Assembly: GCF_002633015.1 (NCBI RefSeq)
Contig: NZ_NSIU01000007.1
Coordinates: 1-64,000, forward strand
Direction: 5' to 3'
DNA from: Sulfuricurvum sp. PD_MW2
Lineage (GTDB): Bacteria > Campylobacterota > Campylobacteria > Campylobacterales > Sulfurimonadaceae
Length of the DNA stretch: 64,000 nt
Position numbers and translations under genes: made by a program. How positions within the stretch are numbered: the first letter of the stretch is position 1; each line of letters starts with the position of its first letter. This document shows, in pieces, positions 7,654 through 18,451 of the stretch. Under the pieces are notes generated by a model that saw only the letters and a list, made by a program, of their open reading frames with translations, ran no database searches and had not been told where the DNA came from.

Positions 7654-8958
7654 ATGCGCTTTTTTGCCCTTTTGCTCATCCCGTTATGGATGAGTGCTTC
7701 AAACCTCAAAGATAAAATAGACCACATTATCGTTATCTATCTCGAAAACCGCAGTTTCGATAATCTGTTTTATGGTTTTCACGGAGCAGATACCTCGGAT
7801 GCCCCTTTACAATCTTATCCACTTCAAATAAATGGTGAGGGAAAAACCTATTCACATATTGAGATGGGTCCTAATGCAATACAATCGGGATTTCCAAAAC
7901 AGATCAATAACACCCCATTTTTGCTTGACGAGTTCATATCTCAAGAGGGGATGATTCCCGACATGGTACACCGTTTTTACCAAAACATCCTCCAAATCAA
8001 TAACGGAAAAAATGACCGGTTTGCTTATATCAGTAATGAAAAAGCTCTTGTGATGGGGTATCACAATATGCGTGAAAGTCATATGTGGCGATACGCAAAA
8101 GAGTTTACGCTGTGTGACCGATTTTTTGCTGCGGCATATGGGGGGTCGTTTTTAAATCATCAGTGGCTGATTGCGGCGCAAACACCCTATGTTGGAAAAG
8201 AGAGCAATATTTCCCGCTATGAATTGGATGAAAATGGCGAAATTATCAAAGACGGTATATTAACCCCTGATGGATATGCGGTTAATACGATTCAGCCATT
8301 TTACCCGCCTTTTAAAGCTAAATATTCCGATTCGGCATTGCGGTTAAAACCACTAATGCATGATACGATCGGGGATCGGCTGAGTGAACGAAATATTTCA
8401 TGGGGTTGGTACAGCGGTGGCTATCGTAAAGCGCTTGAGGGTAAAGGGGATGAAATTCACTACCAATACCATCACAATCCGTTTTTGTATTTTGAACGCT
8501 ATAAGCCCGGCAGTGAGGGGCGTCGCCACTTGCATGACGAAGAGGAACTGATAAAGCAGATCAATAACTCATTATTGCCGAATGTGGTGTTTTTTAAGCC
8601 TTCTGCCGAAGATAATCAGCATCCTGGTTATGCGAGTGTGAAAGCGGCGGATGAGAAACTCTATCAAATCGTAGAGCTGATTCGTTCAAACAAACCTTTA
8701 TGGGAGAAGTCACTCATTTTGGTTACATACGATGAGAACGGAGGATTGTGGGACCATGTTGCACCTCCTGCGGCAGATCGTTGGGGTCCGGGGACGCGGG
8801 TACCCGCATTAGTCATATCTCCGTATGCAAAAAAAGGGTATGTGGACCATACACTTTATGACACCACTTCTATTTTACGCTTTATCGAATGGCGACACAA
8901 TTTGAAACTTGTTGGAGAACGTCAAAGCGCCAATATGCTTAATGCTTTTGAAGAGTAA
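7654..8958 (+). CDS. Secreted phosphoesterase (phospholipase C / acid phosphatase family)
   Basis: 434 aa with an N-terminal signal peptide (about 1-17, MRFFALLLIPLWMSAS). The family motifs of the phosphoesterase group that includes bacterial phospholipase C and AcpA acid phosphatase are clear: ENRSFDNLFYGF near the N-terminus, a mid-region HPGYASV segment, and TYDENGGLWDHVAPP near residue 365. It probably hydrolyses phosphate esters in the periplasm or outside the cell. The upstream promoter matches the Pho-box layout and the gene faces the pst operon, so phosphate scavenging is the likely role. Whether the substrate is phospholipid or a small ester cannot be told. Confidence 0.85.
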   Translation: MRFFALLLIPLWMSASNLKDKIDHIIVIYLENRSFDNLFYGFHGADTSDAPLQSYPLQINGEGKTYSHIEMGPNAIQSGFPKQINNTPFLLDEFISQEGMIPDMVHRFYQNILQINNGKNDRFAYISNEKALVMGYHNMRESHMWRYAKEFTLCDRFFAAAYGGSFLNHQWLIAAQTPYVGKESNISRYELDENGEIIKDGILTPDGYAVNTIQPFYPPFKAKYSDSALRLKPLMHDTIGDRLSERNISWGWYSGGYRKALEGKGDEIHYQYHHNPFLYFERYKPGSEGRRHLHDEEELIKQINNSLLPNVVFFKPSAEDNQHPGYASVKAADEKLYQIVELIRSNKPLWEKSLILVTYDENGGLWDHVAPPAADRWGPGTRVPALVISPYAKKGYVDHTLYDTTSILRFIEWRHNLKLVGERQSANMLNAFEE

Positions 8959-9037: not shown

Positions 9038-9823
9038 TCACCCGAATTTACCGGTGATATATTCTTGTGTCAATTTTTCTTTCGGGGTAACGAAGAGTTC
9101 TTCAGTGTGCCCCAACTCGATCAAATCCCCTAAATACATAAATCCGGTGTAATCACTCACACGAGCTGCTTGCTGCATATTATGGGTAACGATGATGATC
9201 GAAACACGCTCTTTGAGTTCAATAACCAGTTTTTCAATTCCTTGGGTTGAAATCGGATCAAGTGCCGAGGTCGGTTCGTCGAAGAGGAGAACTTCAGGCT
9301 CAACCGCAATCGCACGTGCGATACATAAACGCTGCTGTTGACCTCCGGAGAGACCGTTGGCATCGTGTTTGAGGCGGTCTTTTACCTCTTTCCAAATAGC
9401 GGCGTCTTGGAGCGCTTTTTCAACACGCCCTTCCAACTCGGTTTTGTTTTTAATCCCTTGAAGACGCATACCATACGCGACATTATCGAAAATCGACATC
9501 GGAAACGCCGTCGGTTTTTGGAAAATCATCCCGATTTTGGTGCGTAAATGGATCAAATCTTCTTTAGGATCGAGGATATTGCGACCTTCAAACTCGATCT
9601 CACCTTCGTATTTGTTCCCCGGATAGAGATCGTGCATACGGTTGAATGAACGAAGTAAGGTTGTTTTTCCGCATCCTGATGGTCCGATCAATGCCGTAAC
9701 GGAGTGTTTGGCGATCGGCATCGTTACTTTTTTCAAACTTGGCGTAGTAGCACCTTTGTAGGTGAAACTAAAATTACGGACGTGGAGTGAACATTCATCT
9801 TTGATATCGATAATACTTGCCAT
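9038..9823 (-). CDS. pstB: Phosphate ABC transporter ATP-binding protein PstB
   Basis: ATPase that drives high-affinity phosphate import through PstCA. 261 aa from the ATG at 9823; the longer ORF in the track runs back into pstA and is rejected. Walker [10 protein letters not shown], the ABC signature LSGGQQQR and Walker [13 protein letters not shown] are all present, and the 3' part keeps the H-loop (IVTHNMQQA). It starts 2 bp after pstA and ends at a strong terminator, so it closes the pho/pst operon. Confidence 0.97.
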
Positions 9824-9825
9824 AA

Positions 9826-10668
9826 TTATTTCCTTTTTCCGGCTAATAAAATAAGTCGTCCCACAATATTGAGACCTAAAATAAACATTGAGAGGATAAA
9901 TGCTGCCGCCCATCCGAGTTGTTGCCAGTCATCGTAGGGACTGATTGCATAGTTAAACATCGTAACTGTAAGCGAAGGCATTGCTTCATTCAAATCGGTG
10001 GTGAAAAAGTTATCGTTAAATGAAGTGAATAACAACGGTGCCGTTTCGCCTCCGACACGGGCGATACCGAGCAATACACCGGTCAAAATACCCGCTTTTG
10101 CACCGCGATAAACGACATCCATAATCACTTTGTATTTTGGTGCACCAAGTGCAAATGCCGCTTCTCTAAGCGTTCCGGGTACCAGTTGGAGCATATCGTC
10201 CGTTGTACGCAAAATGATCGGAATCATGATAATCGCGAGTGCGATCGCTCCGGCCCATGCACTGAAGTGCCCCATCGGCATAACGACCACAGCGTAGACG
10301 AAAGCTCCGATAACAATCGAAGGTGCCGACATCATGATATCACTGATATCGCGGATTGTGTGGGCAAGTTTTGAGTTTTTACCGTATTCGCTCAAATACG
10401 TTCCCGCCATAATTCCGAGGGGAACACCGATGAGAGTTGCCAAACCGACAAGGATGAGCTGTCCGACAAGAGCGTGTTTAAGACCGCTTTCGGCATAGCC
10501 CGGAGGTGATCCCTCGAACATAAAGATGCTCCAACTCAACGAGTCGACCCCTTTCATCACTAAAACCCCGAGGATCCAAAACAAAAAGGCGAGGGCGATA
10601 ATCGCGCTTAGCGTCGAGAATCCAAGAGCGATGCGGTTGATGATGATCCGTTTTTGGGTTGCGGTCAT
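9826..10668 (-). CDS. pstA: Phosphate ABC transporter permease PstA
   Basis: 280-aa inner-membrane permease with six predicted membrane helices. The cytoplasmic coupling loop that contacts PstB is visible at [22 protein letters not shown]. It overlaps pstC by 4 bp (10665-10668), so translation is probably coupled and equal amounts of the two permease halves are made. Confidence 0.96.
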
Positions 10669-11516
10669 TGTCCTTTCCTCACTTTACGTAAAAAGTAAAA
10701 TTTTGCGATAGCGATGACGACAAAGCTCATTACAAGCAGGGTTAGCGCCAATCCAAACAGGCTCGAGAAATAGAGTGACGAATCGGCTTCGGTAAATTCG
10801 TTTGCCAATGTAACCGGAATCGAAGTCGTCGGATCAAGAATGGTTTTTGGGGTGTGGTGGACATTCCCCATTACAAACGTTACCGCCATAGTCTCTCCGA
10901 TTGCCCGACCCAGAGCGAGAATGAGTGAACCGATAATCCCGGCTTTGGCGTAAGGGATGATGATATCTTTGATCACATCCCACTGGGTTCCACCCAGAGC
11001 GTAGGCCGATTCTTTCAAAATATCGGGAGTGGTGTTCATCGCATCGCGGGTGACAGCTGCCATAAACGGCAAAATCATAATCGCCAAAACGATTCCTGCC
11101 GCCAATAGACCGATCCCCATCCCGCCGAAAATATCACGTAGAATCGGTACGAAGAAAAAGAGTCCCCACATCCCGTAGATAACGGAAGGGATGGCGGCGA
11201 GAAGCTCGACGCTCACTCCGAAGAACCCTTTGATTTTATCGTGAGCAATTTCACTGAGGAAAATAGCAACACCGATAGCCACGGGAATTGCCAATAGCAT
11301 CGCCAAAAACGTCGAAGCGACAGAACCGAAAATCGCCGCATACGCGCCGAATTTTTCGAGGTTCGGTGCCCATTCGTCTTTGGTAATGAAATCAAAACCG
11401 AACGTTTGCATCGCTTCGATCGAGTGATTAAAGAGGACCACAAAAATCCAGGCAACGATGAAAAGGATCAACAGTGCGCTGGTACGGGTCATATTTAGGA
11501 AGATTTTATCAATCAT
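10665..11516 (-). CDS. pstC: Phosphate ABC transporter permease PstC
   Basis: 283-aa permease partner of PstA with six membrane helices and the coupling loop ESAYALGGTQWDVIKDIIIPYA. It starts 46 bp downstream of cca, and no separate promoter with the Pho layout was found in that short gap, so it is probably transcribed from the phoU promoter through cca. The pstS gene for the binding protein is not next to it but lies divergently beyond phoU. Confidence 0.96.
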   Translation of the reverse strand: MIDKIFLNMTRTSALLILFIVAWIFVVLFNHSIEAMQTFGFDFITKDEWAPNLEKFGAYAAIFGSVASTFLAMLLAIPVAIGVAIFLSEIAHDKIKGFFGVSVELLAAIPSVIYGMWGLFFFVPILRDIFGGMGIGLLAAGIVLAIMILPFMAAVTRDAMNTTPDILKESAYALGGTQWDVIKDIIIPYAKAGIIGSLILALGRAIGETMAVTFVMGNVHHTPKTILDPTTSIPVTLANEFTEADSSLYFSSLFGLALTLLVMSFVVIAIAKFYFLRKVRKGQ

Positions 11517-11562
11517 GCCAAGCCCTTGAGCAAAAAATTAGGGCAATTTTATTGCAAGATGA

Positions 11563-12936
11563 TTACAGTTGAGTTACGAGCCACTCAAGTGCTTCTTCAT
11601 GGGTCGAAAAAACTTGATCGAGTTGGGCATGATAGGCCTGTTCCAAAATACCTTTAAATGTCTCCGATGGGGTTAATCCATACGAAATTAAATCCCGTCC
11701 CATAAGTAATGGTTTTGGAGGCTCAAATAAAACATTCAATGCCGATGCACGTTCGTAAAGCCACTCTCCTGCCTCAAAGGTTTTTGGAACAGGGGTATTG
11801 AAAGAGCGTCCGTAAAAATCAGCTTTTGCAACACGTATCAGATCATGAATGCAAACGTGTGTGCTTAAATGTAAAATAGCTCTGTCATCGGCGCTAGAGC
11901 GATAAAGTTTACGCGGGAAACCGTGATAGCGGATGAGAGGAAGAATACGCTCAACCAAATCTTTATCATCGGTTATGCGAGATAACCAATCTCTAGCAAT
12001 TTCGACACCTGCTTCTGCATGTTTCGGGGCATTTAATTGGCCGTTTTCGATGAGCGTGGTCTGAGGTTTTCCGATGTCGTGCAATAGCATCGTAAGCATC
12101 AATACCATATCATCACGCCATTGTCCGCTTCGTAACGATGCCATTGTATCAAGTGCCATTAGGGTGTGATTCCATACCGACCCTTCAGGATGAGACTCTT
12201 TTTCTTGGGGGGTTGTTTCAAGTTGATCCAAAGGAGAAAAGAACTCCAATCCTCCCATTTCTCGAAACAGCGCAAATCCGATGGAGGGGCGGTCACTTTG
12301 TAAAAGAAGTTTTTTTAACTCTTCAAAAATCCGCTCTTTCGGAAGCTCTGCGAGGGCACCTTCTGCAATCATGTTGCGGCAAAGATCAAGGAGTGTTGTA
12401 TCGCATGTGAGCTCATATCGGGCGGCAAACTGTACGGCGCGCAATACTCGCAAAGGATCATCGACAAATGTTTCGGGATCGACACAGCGGAGAATTTTGT
12501 TTTCCAAATCGTTCAAGCCGTCGTAGGGATCCAGTAATTTTTTTTCTATCGGATCGTATCCTATCGCATTGATTGTGAAATCACGGCGACGTGCTGCGGC
12601 TGAAAAATCGAGATGGCTATGCCATGCCATCTCAAAACCTTTGTGTCCAAAGCCCGATTTGGATTCGGTACGAGGAGGAGAAAAATCGATTGCATAGCCC
12701 TCATAGGAGAGTTTTATGACGCCGAAGCTTTTGCCGTAAAGCCCCATTTTTCCGAAAGGCTTTAGGAGTGTTTCGAGTGTTTCGAGAGAGGTGACGCCGT
12801 AGAGTTCGATATCGAGATCTTGAGTCATGTGACCAGTAAAATGATCCCGAACAAATCCACCTACAAAAATGGCTCTGATCCCGTGGTACGAGAGATGTTC
12901 AACCAGTCGTACCAAAGGGAGAGGGAGGTGTATCAT
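11563..12936 (-). CDS. cca: CCA tRNA nucleotidyltransferase with HD domain
   Basis: Adds or repairs the 3' CCA of tRNAs. 457 aa. The class II nucleotidyltransferase head is clear: FVGGFVRDHF, then the DLDIELYG acidic pair, the RRRDFTINAIGYD motif and VDDPLRVLRAVQFAARY. A C-terminal HD phosphohydrolase domain follows (MLLHDIGKP), as in multifunctional Cca proteins. It overlaps the sensor kinase by 4 bp and is followed by pstC, an unusual place for a tRNA maturation gene. A poly(A) polymerase-like specificity cannot be excluded from sequence alone. Confidence 0.88.
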   Translation of the reverse strand: MIHLPLPLVRLVEHLSYHGIRAIFVGGFVRDHFTGHMTQDLDIELYGVTSLETLETLLKPFGKMGLYGKSFGVIKLSYEGYAIDFSPPRTESKSGFGHKGFEMAWHSHLDFSAAARRRDFTINAIGYDPIEKKLLDPYDGLNDLENKILRCVDPETFVDDPLRVLRAVQFAARYELTCDTTLLDLCRNMIAEGALAELPKERIFEELKKLLLQSDRPSIGFALFREMGGLEFFSPLDQLETTPQEKESHPEGSVWNHTLMALDTMASLRSGQWRDDMVLMLTMLLHDIGKPQTTLIENGQLNAPKHAEAGVEIARDWLSRITDDKDLVERILPLIRYHGFPRKLYRSSADDRAILHLSTHVCIHDLIRVAKADFYGRSFNTPVPKTFEAGEWLYERASALNVLFEPPKPLLMGRDLISYGLTPSETFKGILEQAYHAQLDQVFSTHEEALEWLVTQL

Positions 12937-14345
12937 TTTTTTGACTTACCCTTTTTTTCGATCATGGAGACAAGAGAAAATCCAAACGTTGATCCAACCC
13001 CTTGCGTGCTCTCGATCGTAAGAGCCGAATCATGTAATTTGAGGATGTAGCTGACGATAGAGAGCCCTAACCCCATCGAGTTATCCCACCGGTTTTTCTG
13101 GACGCGATAGAATTTTGAGGTTATTTTATCGAGTTCGTTCGAGGCGATACCGATCCCTTTGTCGGTAATGCTGATCGTAGACTCGGTGAGGGTAACACTT
13201 ACTTCTTCTTCGGAGTATTTCAAGGCGTTGTCTATCAGGTTGGTTATGACGAGTTCCAGCATCGTTTTATCTGCAAATACATTTTTGGAGGAACCTTCAA
13301 AACGGATGGAGCGTTCCGGATATTTCGCTTGCAAGATTGAAATAGAATCCAAACAGACGTTAGCCAAGTCAAAGGTGCTCGGCTTGATCGAGAGATCATT
13401 GTTTTCCAGTTTTACCGATAGGGCGAGACGATCGAGCATGAGTGTAACACGATGGGTATTGGAGAGAATTTTTTCCAAAAACTTTTGACGGATTTTCGGA
13501 TCGATATTAATATCATCGCGGAGTGTTTCGGCATATCCCATGATGGCAGCGATCGGATTTTTAAACTCATGGCTGATTGCCGAGAGAATATCGTTTTGCT
13601 GTTTGTTGATCAAGCGGAGTTTGGCCGTGTGTTTGCGTTTTTGTTTATCACGGTTATGGAGTTTTTTGACTAAATTTTTGAGGAGTATCGAGATTTGCAA
13701 AAACTCCCGAAAATATTCGGGTTTGAGTATGGCCCGATAATTCTTAGCCGAAACCTCATCCAGATAGCGGGTAATTTGGAGAATATCGTAACGGGCTTTT
13801 TTGGAGATGTTATAAGCGATAATGAGTGCAATGACCATTAAAAGGATAAAGGCGATAAAAAGCTTGATCCACAGGGAATAAAAGTGTTCCATAACGCTTC
13901 GCAAACTCATTGAAAGCCTGAAATAAACGCTCCCGTCCGGTTTGGAAATTTTTTTGGCAACATAGACAAAATCACTTTTTAATGTCTTGGAATAACGGAT
14001 GGTCATCCCGTAGGGATTTTGCATGGCCTCCATGATTTCGACACGATTGGAGTGGTTTTCCATTTTAGTCTTGTCGGTATCGCTCTCAGCGATTACTGCA
14101 CCGTCTTCAGCAACGACGGTTACTCGTAAATGGGCTTTTTGAGCGATGGAGGATGCAAGAGAATCAAGATTTTTTGATTCGATGATTTGAGGTTCGAGAA
14201 GCTCAATATTCTGGATCAATCGCTCTTTTCCATCTTCGATGATCATACTTTTTAGGGCGAAAAAACTGATGAGTGAAGCGACCAAAAGAGCCGCGATAAA
14301 AAGTCCTAAAATGTTCAGAAAAAAGAGCTGATGAATTCTTAGCAC
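12933..14345 (-). CDS. phoR: Phosphate-responsive sensor histidine kinase (PhoR-like)
   Basis: 470 aa. One membrane helix near residues 8-30, an extracytoplasmic region to about 160, and a second helix at about 162-182. Then comes a linker with a long charged helix and the kinase core: H-box SHEFKNPIAAIMGYAETL, N-box NLIDNALKYSEE, G1 DKGIGI and G2 GLGLSIV. Unlike E. coli PhoR it has a real extracytoplasmic loop, so it may sense a signal there. The 7-bp overlap with the response regulator and the position within the pho/pst operon support the assignment; the phosphate signal is inferred from context. Confidence 0.85.
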   Translation of the reverse strand: MLRIHQLFFLNILGLFIAALLVASLISFFALKSMIIEDGKERLIQNIELLEPQIIESKNLDSLASSIAQKAHLRVTVVAEDGAVIAESDTDKTKMENHSNRVEIMEAMQNPYGMTIRYSKTLKSDFVYVAKKISKPDGSVYFRLSMSLRSVMEHFYSLWIKLFIAFILLMVIALIIAYNISKKARYDILQITRYLDEVSAKNYRAILKPEYFREFLQISILLKNLVKKLHNRDKQKRKHTAKLRLINKQQNDILSAISHEFKNPIAAIMGYAETLRDDINIDPKIRQKFLEKILSNTHRVTLMLDRLALSVKLENNDLSIKPSTFDLANVCLDSISILQAKYPERSIRFEGSSKNVFADKTMLELVITNLIDNALKYSEEEVSVTLTESTISITDKGIGIASNELDKITSKFYRVQKNRWDNSMGLGLSIVSYILKLHDSALTIESTQGVGSTFGFSLVSMIEKKGKSKK

Positions 14346-15013
14346 AGCGTGTATCCGACTCCCCGTACGGTTTTGATATAGTCTTTGTTTTTATCGGGAT
14401 CGATTTTTTCTTTGAGGCGGTTGATAGCCACGTTTACAGTGCGGTCTTGATAGACCTCATCGCTCCCCCACACGTTTTCGAGAAGATAGTCACGATCAAG
14501 CACAACATTTTCATTCACGATAAGAGCATGCAGAAGATCGAATTCTAGTTTTGTTAGTTCTACTGGTTTACCCTCGATAAAAGCACTTCGTGCGCCGAGA
14601 TTGAGAGAGATGTCTCGATAGGTGACATCGCCTGCGGCAGAGAGTTTTTTGGTTCGGCGCAATACCGCTTTCACCCGTAAAATCAACTCTTTCATACTAA
14701 AGGGTTTGGTGATGTAATCATCACCGCCGCGTTCAAATCCCTGTTCGATCTCTTCATCTTTGTGTTTTGCACTCACAAAAATAACAGGGGTGTGAATTCC
14801 CCGCTTGCGGAGTGATTCGACAAACTCGGATCCCTCGGCACCGGGAAGATTGCGATCCATTAAAATCAGGTCGATATGTTCTTCTTCCAATGCTGCCAAA
14901 ACATGTTTTGTATTCAGAAATCCGATGGTTTCAAATCCCTCTTTGGAGAGATGATATTCCATCAGTTCCAAAATATCCTGTTCGTCTTCGACAATCAGTA
15001 TCAACGCATTCAC
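14339..15013 (-). CDS. phoB: Response regulator, OmpR/PhoB family
   Basis: 224 aa from a GTG start at 15013, preceded at 7 bp by AAGGA; this is preferred over the longer ORF from 15040. The receiver has acidic residues at VEDEQD, the phospho-acceptor Asp in LILMDRNLPG, and the Lys in ITKPFSMKEL. The C-terminal winged helix ends in the usual TVRGVGYTLC. Likely binds the 11-bp-spaced repeats at the phoU, pstS, porin and phosphoesterase promoters. It is paired with the adjacent kinase. The name phoB is inferred from operon context. Confidence 0.88.
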   Translation of the reverse strand: MNALILIVEDEQDILELMEYHLSKEGFETIGFLNTKHVLAALEEEHIDLILMDRNLPGAEGSEFVESLRKRGIHTPVIFVSAKHKDEEIEQGFERGGDDYITKPFSMKELILRVKAVLRRTKKLSAAGDVTYRDISLNLGARSAFIEGKPVELTKLEFDLLHALIVNENVVLDRDYLLENVWGSDEVYQDRTVNVAINRLKEKIDPDKNKDYIKTVRGVGYTLC

Positions 15014-15055
15014 GATTGATTCCTTTCTTCGCAGTTTCACGTCTATTCTTTAGAA

Positions 15056-15727
15056 CTAATTGTGTAAATTTAATTCGCCGCCTTTTTGAGCAAAAAGCAT
15101 TAACGATGCGATATTGACGGTACGATCTCCGATACGTTCCAATTTTCGAAGTGTTCCCAATACTCTAACGTACTCTACAGCGAGGTCATCTGCATCGATG
15201 ATGAGATTTAAGAGCTCTTTTTCCATAATAGAGAAAAGATCGTCATTTTTAGACTCTTCAACCATCACTTTGCGGTAAACGTCTTCTGCATCACACGACT
15301 CAATAGAGTCCAAACATTCAGTAATGTATTGTAACGCATTGATGGTCGTTTTATGCAATTGGATGATTGCATTTGTCAGCACGGACATATCACATCCTCC
15401 GATGCAGTGATCATGAAGGCGTTTGCTGTATTTTTTGAGTCCGTCGCCGATACGGTCAATTTCATTGGTCATTTTTAGATACGCAACGAGAAGACGTAAC
15501 TCATCAGCTTCAGGGCCGAAGAGGGCAAACGTTTTGATAATTTCGTTATCGATTTTGTTAGCGTCGCTTTGGAGATTTTTGATATGGGTACGTGATGTTT
15601 CATACAGTTCCATATTTCCTGTTTCAAAAGCGGCGAGAGTCTCTTCGCTCGATTGAATGATTTGAGAGAGGATGGCTGAAATCATTGAGCGGATTTCATT
15701 GAGCTTATTTTCATAGCGTGGTAGCAT
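15056..15727 (-). CDS. phoU: Phosphate signalling protein PhoU
   Basis: 223 aa of two repeated three-helix bundles, with the PhoU metal-binding style motif in MTNEIDRIGDGLKKY and again in LRKLERIGDRTVNIA. It links PstSCAB transport state to the PhoR/PhoB pair. It is the first gene of the minus-strand operon phoU-phoB-phoR-cca-pstC-pstA-pstB, and its promoter with a Pho-box layout lies 31 bp upstream of the start codon. Confidence 0.94.
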   Translation of the reverse strand: MLPRYENKLNEIRSMISAILSQIIQSSEETLAAFETGNMELYETSRTHIKNLQSDANKIDNEIIKTFALFGPEADELRLLVAYLKMTNEIDRIGDGLKKYSKRLHDHCIGGCDMSVLTNAIIQLHKTTINALQYITECLDSIESCDAEDVYRKVMVEESKNDDLFSIMEKELLNLIIDADDLAVEYVRVLGTLRKLERIGDRTVNIASLMLFAQKGGELNLHN

Positions 15728-15757: not shown

Positions 15758-15790
15758 ATTATAACGGCGCTTTATAACCGTGAGATTACA
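15758..15790 (-). promoter_or_regulatory. Pho-box promoter of the phoU operon
   Basis: On the minus strand: TGTAAT, 5 bp, GGTTAT, 10 bp, -10 TATAAT. The two hexamers are 11 bp apart, one helical turn, as expected for tandem binding of an OmpR/PhoB-type regulator replacing a -35 box. The same layout occurs on the opposite strand at pstS only 15 bp away. Confidence 0.75.
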
Positions 15791-15804
15791 AACATCGTTT
15801 TATT

Positions 15805-15837
15805 TGTAATCATTTTGTTACCCGCTAATTTTACAAT
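15805..15837 (+). promoter_or_regulatory. Pho-box promoter of pstS
   Basis: TGTAAT, 5 bp (CATTT), TGTTAC, 10 bp, -10 TACAAT. Spacing is identical to the phoU, porin and phosphoesterase promoters. Spacing and hexamers are read directly; binding by the operon's PhoB-like regulator is inferred. Confidence 0.78.
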
Positions 15838-15868: not shown

Positions 15869-16870
15869 ATGCTAAAGAGCGTAACAAAAGGTTTGGTCAT
15901 TGCAGCAATCGCAGCAACCTCAATGGTTGCAGCAGATAAAATCAATGGTGCGGGAGCTACATTTCCGGCTCCATGTTATTATGACTGGGCGTATAACTAC
16001 CAAAAAGCGACCCATACACGTGTTAACTACCAAGCTATCGGTTCAGGCGGAGGGGTTAAGCAGATCTCTGAGCGCATTGTTGATTTTGGTGCGACCGATG
16101 CTCCATTGACACCAAAAGAGTTGGATGCGGCAAAATTGACTCAATTTCCGGCCGTTATCGGTTCTATCGTTGTGGCGCATAATATTCCCGGTATTGCGGA
16201 TGAAAAATTAAAACTCAAAAATAGCGTTGTAGCAGAAATTTTTGCGGGTCAAATCACTATGTGGAACGATCCTAAAATTGCTGCGGATAATCCAGGAATC
16301 AATTTGCCGGCACAAAAAATCATCGTTGCACATCGTTCTGACGGATCGGGGACAACATTTGTTTTCACAGATTATTTGAGTGAAGCCTCCAAAATGTGGA
16401 AAAGCAAATTCGGAACCGGTAAAGCGATCGGTTGGGCAACCGGTGTCGGTGGAAAAGGAAATGAAGGGGTAACCAACCTCATCAAACAAACACCATACTC
16501 TATTGGGTACATCGAAAATGCGTATAAAGAGAAGAATAATCTCGCAGCTGCTACGCTACAAACTGCGGAAGGAAAATGGGTGAGTGCGACTCTTCCAAAT
16601 TTCCAAGCAGCGGTAAAACAAGCCAAATGGTCGAAAAAAGATCATTTTTACAGCTCGTTGGTTCTTCAAGACAATGCCTATCCGATCGTAGCAGCAACAT
16701 TTATTTTGATGCCTCGTGATGCCGATAAAGCGGATACACGAAATGACGTGATCCGATTCTTTGATTTTTCATTCAAAAACGGAGATGCGGCAGCTCAAAA
16801 GCTTGGCTATATCCCATTGCCGGTTGAAACGACGAATCTTGTTCGCCAATACTGGAATGAAACCAAATAA
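15869..16870 (+). CDS. pstS: Periplasmic phosphate-binding protein PstS
   Basis: 333 aa from the ATG at 15869, preceded by AAAAGGA; the longer ORF from 15746 runs through the promoter and is rejected. An N-terminal signal peptide (about 1-22, ending MVAA) is followed by the phosphate-binding fold. Contact segments typical of PstS are visible: GAGATFPAP, GSGGGVKQI, DFGATDAPL and HRSDGSGTTFVFTDYL. It delivers phosphate to PstCAB encoded on the other strand. The divergent arrangement lets one regulatory region serve both units. Confidence 0.97.
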   Translation: MLKSVTKGLVIAAIAATSMVAADKINGAGATFPAPCYYDWAYNYQKATHTRVNYQAIGSGGGVKQISERIVDFGATDAPLTPKELDAAKLTQFPAVIGSIVVAHNIPGIADEKLKLKNSVVAEIFAGQITMWNDPKIAADNPGINLPAQKIIVAHRSDGSGTTFVFTDYLSEASKMWKSKFGTGKAIGWATGVGGKGNEGVTNLIKQTPYSIGYIENAYKEKNNLAAATLQTAEGKWVSATLPNFQAAVKQAKWSKKDHFYSSLVLQDNAYPIVAATFILMPRDADKADTRNDVIRFFDFSFKNGDAAAQKLGYIPLPVETTNLVRQYWNETK

Positions 16871-17009
16871 ATTTCTCTCTACCTATCCTTTCTGGATGGG
16901 CACCTTCGTTTCTCTCTTCCTCAACACCTTAAGTTTTATTTCCTCTATCCTGGCGTATGCGTTTAGAGGGTGTTTTCCGTTTATTTCCACTTTTGTAACC
17001 GCTTTGCAA

Positions 17010-17042
17010 TGTAACATTGACGTAATCTATTTTTTCTACAAT
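17010..17042 (+). promoter_or_regulatory. Pho-box promoter of the porin gene
   Basis: TGTAAC, 5 bp (ATTGA), CGTAAT, 10 bp, -10 TACAAT. A further TGTAAC lies at 16994-16999. Same geometry and the same -10 sequence as pstS, so the porin is probably induced under phosphate limitation. Confidence 0.7.
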
Positions 17043-17071: not shown

Positions 17072-18451
17072 ATGAAAAAAGTTGCATTATCTGCCCTTGC
17101 TGCGGCGATGATTAGCGGAGTTGCATCGGCGGATGCGTTGACTCTCTACAGTGATCCTAAAACAGGTCAAGTATTTACGACTCCGGGTCAGGGTCGTGTA
17201 GAGATGGGCGATTTCATCAGTGCTAAAGATGTTGATATGCAAGTACGTGATTTGGAATCAAAAAATTCTGAATACCAAGACAAAATGTCTAAATATGTTA
17301 ATGTGAAATCAAAAGCAAAAACACTTGAATTCAGCGGTACGCACTATTTTGGATTGACATCTGCTAGTCCTTCAACCTTGAATACCAATGCCGGTGCAGG
17401 TGTTACATCATCGTATCCAGGAACATCAAGCGGGTTTGAACTTCGCCGTAACTACCTCCAAGTAAAAGCGTATTTCAATGATAAAGACTATTTCCGCGTA
17501 ACGATGGATACGACAAAAGAGATCGGTGCCGATGAAACAAAACGTGCGGGTTATGCTAATATGTATGCAAAATATGCGTACCTCTATTTGGACAAAGTGC
17601 TTCCATACACAGGTGTAGAAATCGGTATTGCTCACCGCCCATGGATCGATTATGAAGAACACAATGCATGGCACTACCGTTCATTCAATAAAGTTGTTTT
17701 GGAAGAGAAAAATACACGAACTGAAACAGGGGTTGACCTTGTCAACTCAGCTGACTTAGGGGTAAATTTTCAAACCAAAACAGATGCATTCAGCTCTGAA
17801 ATCGGTATTTTCAACGGTGAAGGGTATCACGCGGATAAAGCAGCGGCTAACCAAGCTAGCGATTCTAAACTTTCCCTTGAATGGCGTTTGACAGGACATA
17901 TTCTTGGAGACGGAACCAAAGTGGGTAAAAACGATCGTACGAAAGACACGTATGCAAATATCTCTACGTATGGATTGATCTCTAAAAACCATAAAGATGA
18001 CGATACCGATCTTCAAGGTACATTGAGTCCGAATGAATACGATCGCAGTATTTATGGACTCCATGCTGTTTATAATCAACCGGAATTCTTGATTGCGGGG
18101 CAGTACTTCACTGCAAAAGACGATAAGCGTACAAAAGATGTTGCAACAACTTTTGATACCAAAGACTACAAAGGATGGTCTATCAATGCCGAGTATCGTC
18201 CGATTAAAGATTGGACTGTTATCGGACGTTATGATAACTATGAAATTGAGCAAGAACTTAACGGCGCGAAGAATTCTAGAATCAAAGGTGATAAAATCAT
18301 TGCCGGTTTAGGATATAACTACAGTAAAAACGTGAATTTTATTGCGTCAGCAAAATTTGCGGATGAAAAAGATGAGTTAGTTGCGGCAAAAGTGAATGAT
18401 ACGGGTGCATCTAAAGATGTTTACATGTTGACAACTGAGGTTAAGTGGTAA
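17072..18451 (+). CDS. Outer-membrane porin, probably phosphate-regulated
   Basis: 459 aa from the ATG at 17072, which has an AGGAG ribosome site; the upstream ATG at 17063 sits in that site. A signal peptide ending near SGVASADA (about 1-22) is followed by a coiled-coil-like segment with MQVRDLESKNSEYQDKM, and then a beta-barrel of alternating aromatic strands that ends in VKW, an aromatic C-terminus suited to barrel assembly. This matches the OprO/OprP-type porin plan in outline. A phosphate role is inferred from its promoter and from lying next to pstS; substrate selectivity cannot be read. Confidence 0.8.
   Translation: MKKVALSALAAAMISGVASADALTLYSDPKTGQVFTTPGQGRVEMGDFISAKDVDMQVRDLESKNSEYQDKMSKYVNVKSKAKTLEFSGTHYFGLTSASPSTLNTNAGAGVTSSYPGTSSGFELRRNYLQVKAYFNDKDYFRVTMDTTKEIGADETKRAGYANMYAKYAYLYLDKVLPYTGVEIGIAHRPWIDYEEHNAWHYRSFNKVVLEEKNTRTETGVDLVNSADLGVNFQTKTDAFSSEIGIFNGEGYHADKAAANQASDSKLSLEWRLTGHILGDGTKVGKNDRTKDTYANISTYGLISKNHKDDDTDLQGTLSPNEYDRSIYGLHAVYNQPEFLIAGQYFTAKDDKRTKDVATTFDTKDYKGWSINAEYRPIKDWTVIGRYDNYEIEQELNGAKNSRIKGDKIIAGLGYNYSKNVNFIASAKFADEKDELVAAKVNDTGASKDVYMLTTEVKW

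Follow-up and report, generated by a model that had tools for sequence, protein, structure and literature searches.

Putative Pho boxes of the TGTAAYC type at the pst/pho locus of Sulfuricurvum sp. PD_MW2 and in other Campylobacterota

Described phosphate-response operators and the phoU-pstS boxes

The repeat recognized by the Campylobacter regulator PhosR is reportedly GTTTC-like, in agreement with the pst promoters of family f3 considered below. The PhoP box of Bacillus subtilis, a member of a distant phylum, is composed of 11-bp direct repeats of TT(A/T/C)ACA; read on the opposite strand this repeat gives TGTWAA, which resembles the TGTAAY encountered here, although the two boxes differ in repeat number and in position relative to the promoter. 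In E. coli the repeat of the PHO box is CTGTCAT (PMC4415409; PMC4832192). The PhoP site of M. tuberculosis, TCACAGC-N4-TCACAGC (PMC4832192), shares a 7-bp tandem repeat and a 4-bp gap with the box described here but differs from it in core.

The window analyzed here, a 64-kb stretch of the Sulfuricurvum sp. PD_MW2 genome, carries two outward-facing arrays in the intergenic region between phoU (15056-15727, minus strand) and pstS (from 15869, plus strand). Each consists of a hexamer, 5 bp, a second hexamer, 10 bp and a -10 box. The array directed toward phoU-phoB-phoR (15790-15758, minus strand) reads TGTAAT-CTCAC-GGTTAT-AAAGCGCCGT-TATAAT, and that directed toward pstS (15805-15837, plus strand) reads TGTAAT-CATTT-TGTTAC-CCGCTAATTT-TACAAT. 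Direct reading and pattern search agree with the letters and coordinates that an earlier note on this DNA had given for both arrays and for their span of 15758-15837. The hexamer-N5 unit proposed in that note has the correct spacing; the repeat is described better by 7-bp units separated by 4 bp, since position 7, usually C (C or A), is not free. From the sites collected, the box is best described as TGTAAYC-N4-YGTWAYC-N9-TANAAT, which combines the geometry of E. coli with another core.

Like the E. coli PHO box, the TGTAAYC box has 7-bp direct repeats separated by a 4-bp gap, lies about 10 bp upstream of the -10 element and precedes pst genes. Its two repeats give an 11-bp period (7 + 4 bp), the likeness to PhoB sites that the earlier note had pointed out; the proximal repeat takes the place of a -35 element, and the box stands before pst and other phosphate genes while being rare elsewhere. 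The core, by contrast, is TGTAA here and TGTCA in E. coli, a difference of one base. The window boxes read TGTAA/GGTTA and TGTAA/TGTTA, with TGTCA in neither, which bears out the distinction drawn in the same note between its hexamer and CTGTCAT. Judged by sequence, the TGTAAYC box would thus work like a PHO box, sharing every testable defining feature apart from the E. coli core. No description of a TGTAAYC Pho box was found in the open-access literature searched, subscription papers lying mostly outside the search.

The genes flanking the boxes are those of a phosphate-uptake and phosphate-signaling locus. PstS (15869-16870, plus strand) matches TIGR00975 at 350 bits, above its cut-off, as do PstC (10665-11516, minus strand; TIGR02138, 283 bits) and PstB (9038-9913, minus strand; TIGR00972, 377 bits). 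An open reading frame between the latter two (9826-10668, minus strand) is assigned to pstA by its place, which its homologues share in relatives. PhoU matches TIGR02135 at 92 bits, below the 130-bit cut-off. The presumed box-binding protein is a PhoB/PhosR-like response regulator of the OmpR family (14339-15040, minus strand; start at 15013 or 15040), in which a receiver domain (Response_reg, PF00072) is joined to a winged-helix domain (Trans_reg_C, PF00486); its best NCBIfam match is PhoB (TIGR02154) at 194 bits, below the 296-bit cut-off for that equivalog. A PhoR/PhosS-like histidine kinase with a weak sCache-like sensor region follows (12933-14345, minus strand). A tRNA nucleotidyltransferase-like gene, cca (11563-12936), separates phoR from pstC in the window and in most Sulfuricurvum relatives. 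Near pstB lies a gene of the acid phosphatase/phospholipase C family (7654-8958; TIGR03397); considered as a member of the Pho regulon, this gene has no Pho box in its upstream 170 bp.

Further boxes in the genome and their conservation

In the window, the pattern TGTAAYN5BGTWAYN10TANNNT matches three times, against none in 100 dinucleotide shuffles. Across the 2,255,500-bp assembly it recovers only the same three sites, all at the pst/pho locus, and its reversed control has no match in the whole assembly. The third site lies at 17010-17042 on the plus strand (TGTAAC-attga-CGTAAT-ctattttttc-TACAAT), ahead of an outer-membrane porin-like gene (17072-18451, plus strand). At least 11 Sulfuricurvum-type relatives have it at the same place, about 32 bp ahead of the start codon, and direct reading reveals an additional upstream repeat pair, TGTAAC-cgctt-TGCAAT (16994-17010, plus strand), which is shifted by 16 bp relative to the main porin box. 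The porin-like protein has no match in Pfam or NCBIfam; its homologues are found 3' of Pho boxes across the phylum, which suggests, from gene context, that it may be a phosphate-uptake porin.

A looser pattern, NGTWAYN6GTWAYN10TANNNT, has six matches in the whole genome against none for its control, five of them before phosphate or porin genes. It adds a site before pstC, one before a PHO4/PitA phosphate transporter gene on another contig and one near msrA (locus L082), the last probably a chance match. The pstCAB box (11546-11578, minus strand; CGTAAC-tcaac-TGTAAT-N10-TAAAAT) overlaps the end of cca and contains a third repeat, TGCAAT (11551-11556), within its spacer; boxes also precede pstC in many relatives. 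The pitA array, outside the window (contig C23 near 61145; locus L081, 1489-1527), sits 32 bp before its gene and comprises four perfectly phased repeats, TGTAAT-aattc-CGTAAC-ctttt-TGTAAT-ggttt-CGTAAT. Because the fourth repeat falls inside the spacer before the likely -10 element TATTAT (L081, 1527-1532), its occupancy might block the promoter, and repression of PitA in low phosphate is possible on this arrangement. The porin, pstC and pitA arrays had been missed in the earlier note.

Seventy-seven relatives were retrieved via phoU and their gene order was mapped. Nearly all of about 40 divergent pstS/phoU regions have retained the box of pstS, and many that of phoU; in one Sulfuricurvum subgroup (for example L021-L031) the phoU-side array is degenerate by pattern. 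The relatives keep the cores of the window boxes. In the aligned sites from these regions, the invariant positions of the repeat cores carry about 2 bits each, a value due partly to the gathering of sites with a pattern, and the DNA between the boxes mostly carries 0.05-0.4 bit. The consensus is TGTAAYC for the distal repeat and YGTWAYC for the proximal; the latter has GTTA in the majority of training sites and mostly GTAA elsewhere. A weight matrix built from these sites locates further boxes: pstC has one in Sulfurimonas and Sulfurospirillum, porin genes are preceded by one in at least 11 loci of Sulfuricurvum type, and so are some homologues of phoB. A relaxed scan adds loci of the named genera Arcobacter (L078) and Sulfurospirillum (L080). 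The box accompanies its genes through rearranged orders, such as the divergent pstS and phoU of Sulfuricurvum and the pstCAB-phoU arrangement of Sulfurimonas.

Range across Campylobacterota and the TGTWTCC spelling

The pattern TGTAAYCN5GTWAYN10TANANT was searched in 298 Campylobacterota genomes of at least 90% completeness, and the first downstream gene was assigned by BLAST to the window proteins together with Pfam and NCBIfam. Matches (about 125, against 7 for the reversed pattern) occur in 74 of the 298 genomes and in 28 of 58 genera. More than half of the 122 distinct matches (64) precede pst or phoU genes, namely PstS (28), PstS-like proteins of the TIGR02136 type (11), PstC (19) and PhoU (6). 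If as many as 2% of promoters belonged to phosphate-uptake genes, such a count would have a probability near 1e-74, a figure that serves only as a yardstick, related genomes not being independent. Porins are downstream of 26 matches, and about 10 precede other phosphorus genes. The assignments outside the pst, phoU and porin groups are PhnF-like (3), PhnD (2), metallophosphoesterase (2) and single cases, one each, of PhnS-like, PhoX, PhoH, GlpR-like and an OlsF-like acyltransferase-GNAT fusion. The remaining 20 have no recognizable phosphorus link, and some of these will be chance matches. In 48 of the 51 cases at pstS and porin genes, the -10 element lies 27-39 bp from the start codon, as expected if the boxes are promoters. 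The enrichment before phosphate genes that the earlier note had proposed as a check of its box is thus present both in its own genome and among these 298. Since the pattern was built from the pst/pho locus and requires a -10-like element, the scan says little about other variants.

Porins of the PF16930 family elsewhere in the phylum likewise lie 3' of Pho boxes. The acyltransferase-GNAT fusion (L137:13861-15501; PF19576 + PF13444), which in a relative from the same family (G129) starts 27 bp downstream of a Pho box, resembles bifunctional ornithine-lipid synthases, and a role in phosphorus-free lipid remodeling is possible from its domains.

The TGTAAYC box occurs in about nine families (f1, f2, mainly in one genus, f4, f7, f8, f9, f10, f12 and one genus of f3), as well as in named Sulfuricurvum, Sulfurimonas, Arcobacter and Sulfurospirillum loci. 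By pattern, this form is common to most of the non-Campylobacter families of Campylobacterota sampled. The suggestion of a phylum-level or genus-level box is supported: the range extends far beyond a genus, although the box is not uniform in the phylum, as most f3 genomes lack a strict match.

Family f3, probably Campylobacteraceae, has no match to the strict pattern in most of its roughly 100 genomes; its genus g54 carries a TGTAAT/CGTAAC form before phoU. The f3 genomes with pst genes that were examined have mostly TGTWTCC or mixed TGTTTTC/TGTAAT repeats in unchanged geometry. The pst promoters read TGTATCC-aaaa-TGTTTCC in g14 and TGTTTCC-attt-TGTTTCC in g15, and the mixed TGTTTTC-aatt-TGTAAT in g19 and g20, all with the same -10 spacing. 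A scan with TGTWTYN5TGTWTYN10TANNNT recovers the pst sites of g14, g15 and one g8 genome, the pattern being noisy against its control, and the Sulfuricurvum sp. PD_MW2 genome has no match to this Campylobacter-type pattern. The PhosR-type box derived from these promoters resembles the TGTAAYC box in its 7-4-7 repeats, -10 spacing, gene set and homologous regulator, and differs from it in the TGTWTCC repeat and in Ile or Thr at residue 197 of the regulator.

Regulator specificity and proposed mechanism

E. coli PhoB contacts bases through T194, V197, R201 and the wing residue R219, while D196 makes no DNA contact (PMC3264566). Set against the E. coli sequence, the window regulator has the same letters at the four contacting positions, and D196, H198, R200 and R203 are replaced by N, A, N and K. 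The recognition helix TVNVAI-RLK is nearly invariant among users of the TGTAAYC box. Replacement of D196 by Asn, paired with the change of C to A in the core, was considered as a sufficient cause of the altered specificity and rejected: N196 also occurs in users of TGTWTCC, and the E. coli residue does not touch DNA. As N196 is almost invariant across the phylum, it is not enough by itself to account for the split between the two box spellings.

Residue 197 (E. coli numbering) correlates with this split better than residue 196. All 17 regulators of the tree from TGTWTCC or mixed genera have Ile or Thr at this position, and all 39 other Campylobacterota regulators of the tree have Val, in a comparison for which the box was read in only part of the tree's genomes. 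On the maximum-likelihood tree this label needs at least two changes, and the long branch of the g14 regulators leaves the second of them insecure. We tentatively raise a PhoB specificity series in which Val versus Ile or Thr at residue 197 might set TGTAAYC versus TGTWTCC, regulator and operators having changed together at least twice; the odds are somewhat against it. Genus g6 of the same family (G190, G287; L277, L301, L278, L302) has two PhoB paralogues about 5 kb apart, both of which keep Asn196 and Val197.

The boxes and their geometry, their conservation, their genomic specificity and the correlation with residue 197 can be read from the genomes themselves. Very probably, the arrays are Pho boxes, the operators of the adjacent phosphate-starvation two-component system (regulator 14339-15040, kinase 12933-14345). 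Against this reading weigh the regulator and PhoU scores, both below their NCBIfam cut-offs, the 20 of 122 matches that lack a phosphorus link and the absence of a box at the acid phosphatase gene. On the model of E. coli, from which the identity of the binding protein and its phosphorylation are carried over, the kinase would phosphorylate the PhoB/PhosR-like regulator in low phosphate, and the phosphorylated regulator would occupy the two 11-bp repeats as a head-to-tail dimer. Because the downstream repeat stands in the -35 place, 10 bp before the -10 box, the regulator would be expected to recruit RNA polymerase as E. coli PhoB does. The boxes would drive pstS, phoU-phoB-phoR, pstCAB and the porin gene and mark pitA, with induction at low phosphate and, through phoU-phoB-phoR, positive feedback.

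Binding by another OmpR-family regulator, in place of the neighbor at 14339-15040, is improbable. Each genome encodes several such regulators, in some relatives the best PhoB homologue lies far from the pst genes, and two genomes have close PhoB paralogue pairs; yet the neighbor is itself the best PhoB match, is linked to the box by synteny in Sulfuricurvum relatives, and varies at residue 197 with box type across the phylum. Less probable still is that both arrays form one palindromic operator (ATTACA-N14-TGTAAT) at which an unrelated dimeric repressor controls the divergent promoters. In most of the Sulfuricurvum relatives that were measured, the outer repeats are indeed inverted copies separated by 14-16 bp. 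Two relatives, however, have them 63 or 424 bp apart, the inner repeats match the outer ones in conservation, and single one-directional boxes precede the pstC, porin and pitA genes. That the repeats are plain sigma-70 promoter elements without a regulator can hardly be maintained, despite their -35-like distance from good -10 boxes, given that they occur mostly before phosphate-related genes and are 11-bp direct repeats, with tandem sets of three or four at pstC and pitA.

Taken as Pho boxes of the neighboring two-component system, these arrays provide a definition of the Pho box that is usable and specific in a phylum of mostly unstudied chemolithotrophs. With it, the Pho regulon may be recognized in genome sequences, down to its porins, PitA, phosphonate uptake, PhoX and possible lipid-remodeling genes. 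The residue-197 split would further offer a compact example of joint change in a regulator and its operator, open to single-residue swaps.
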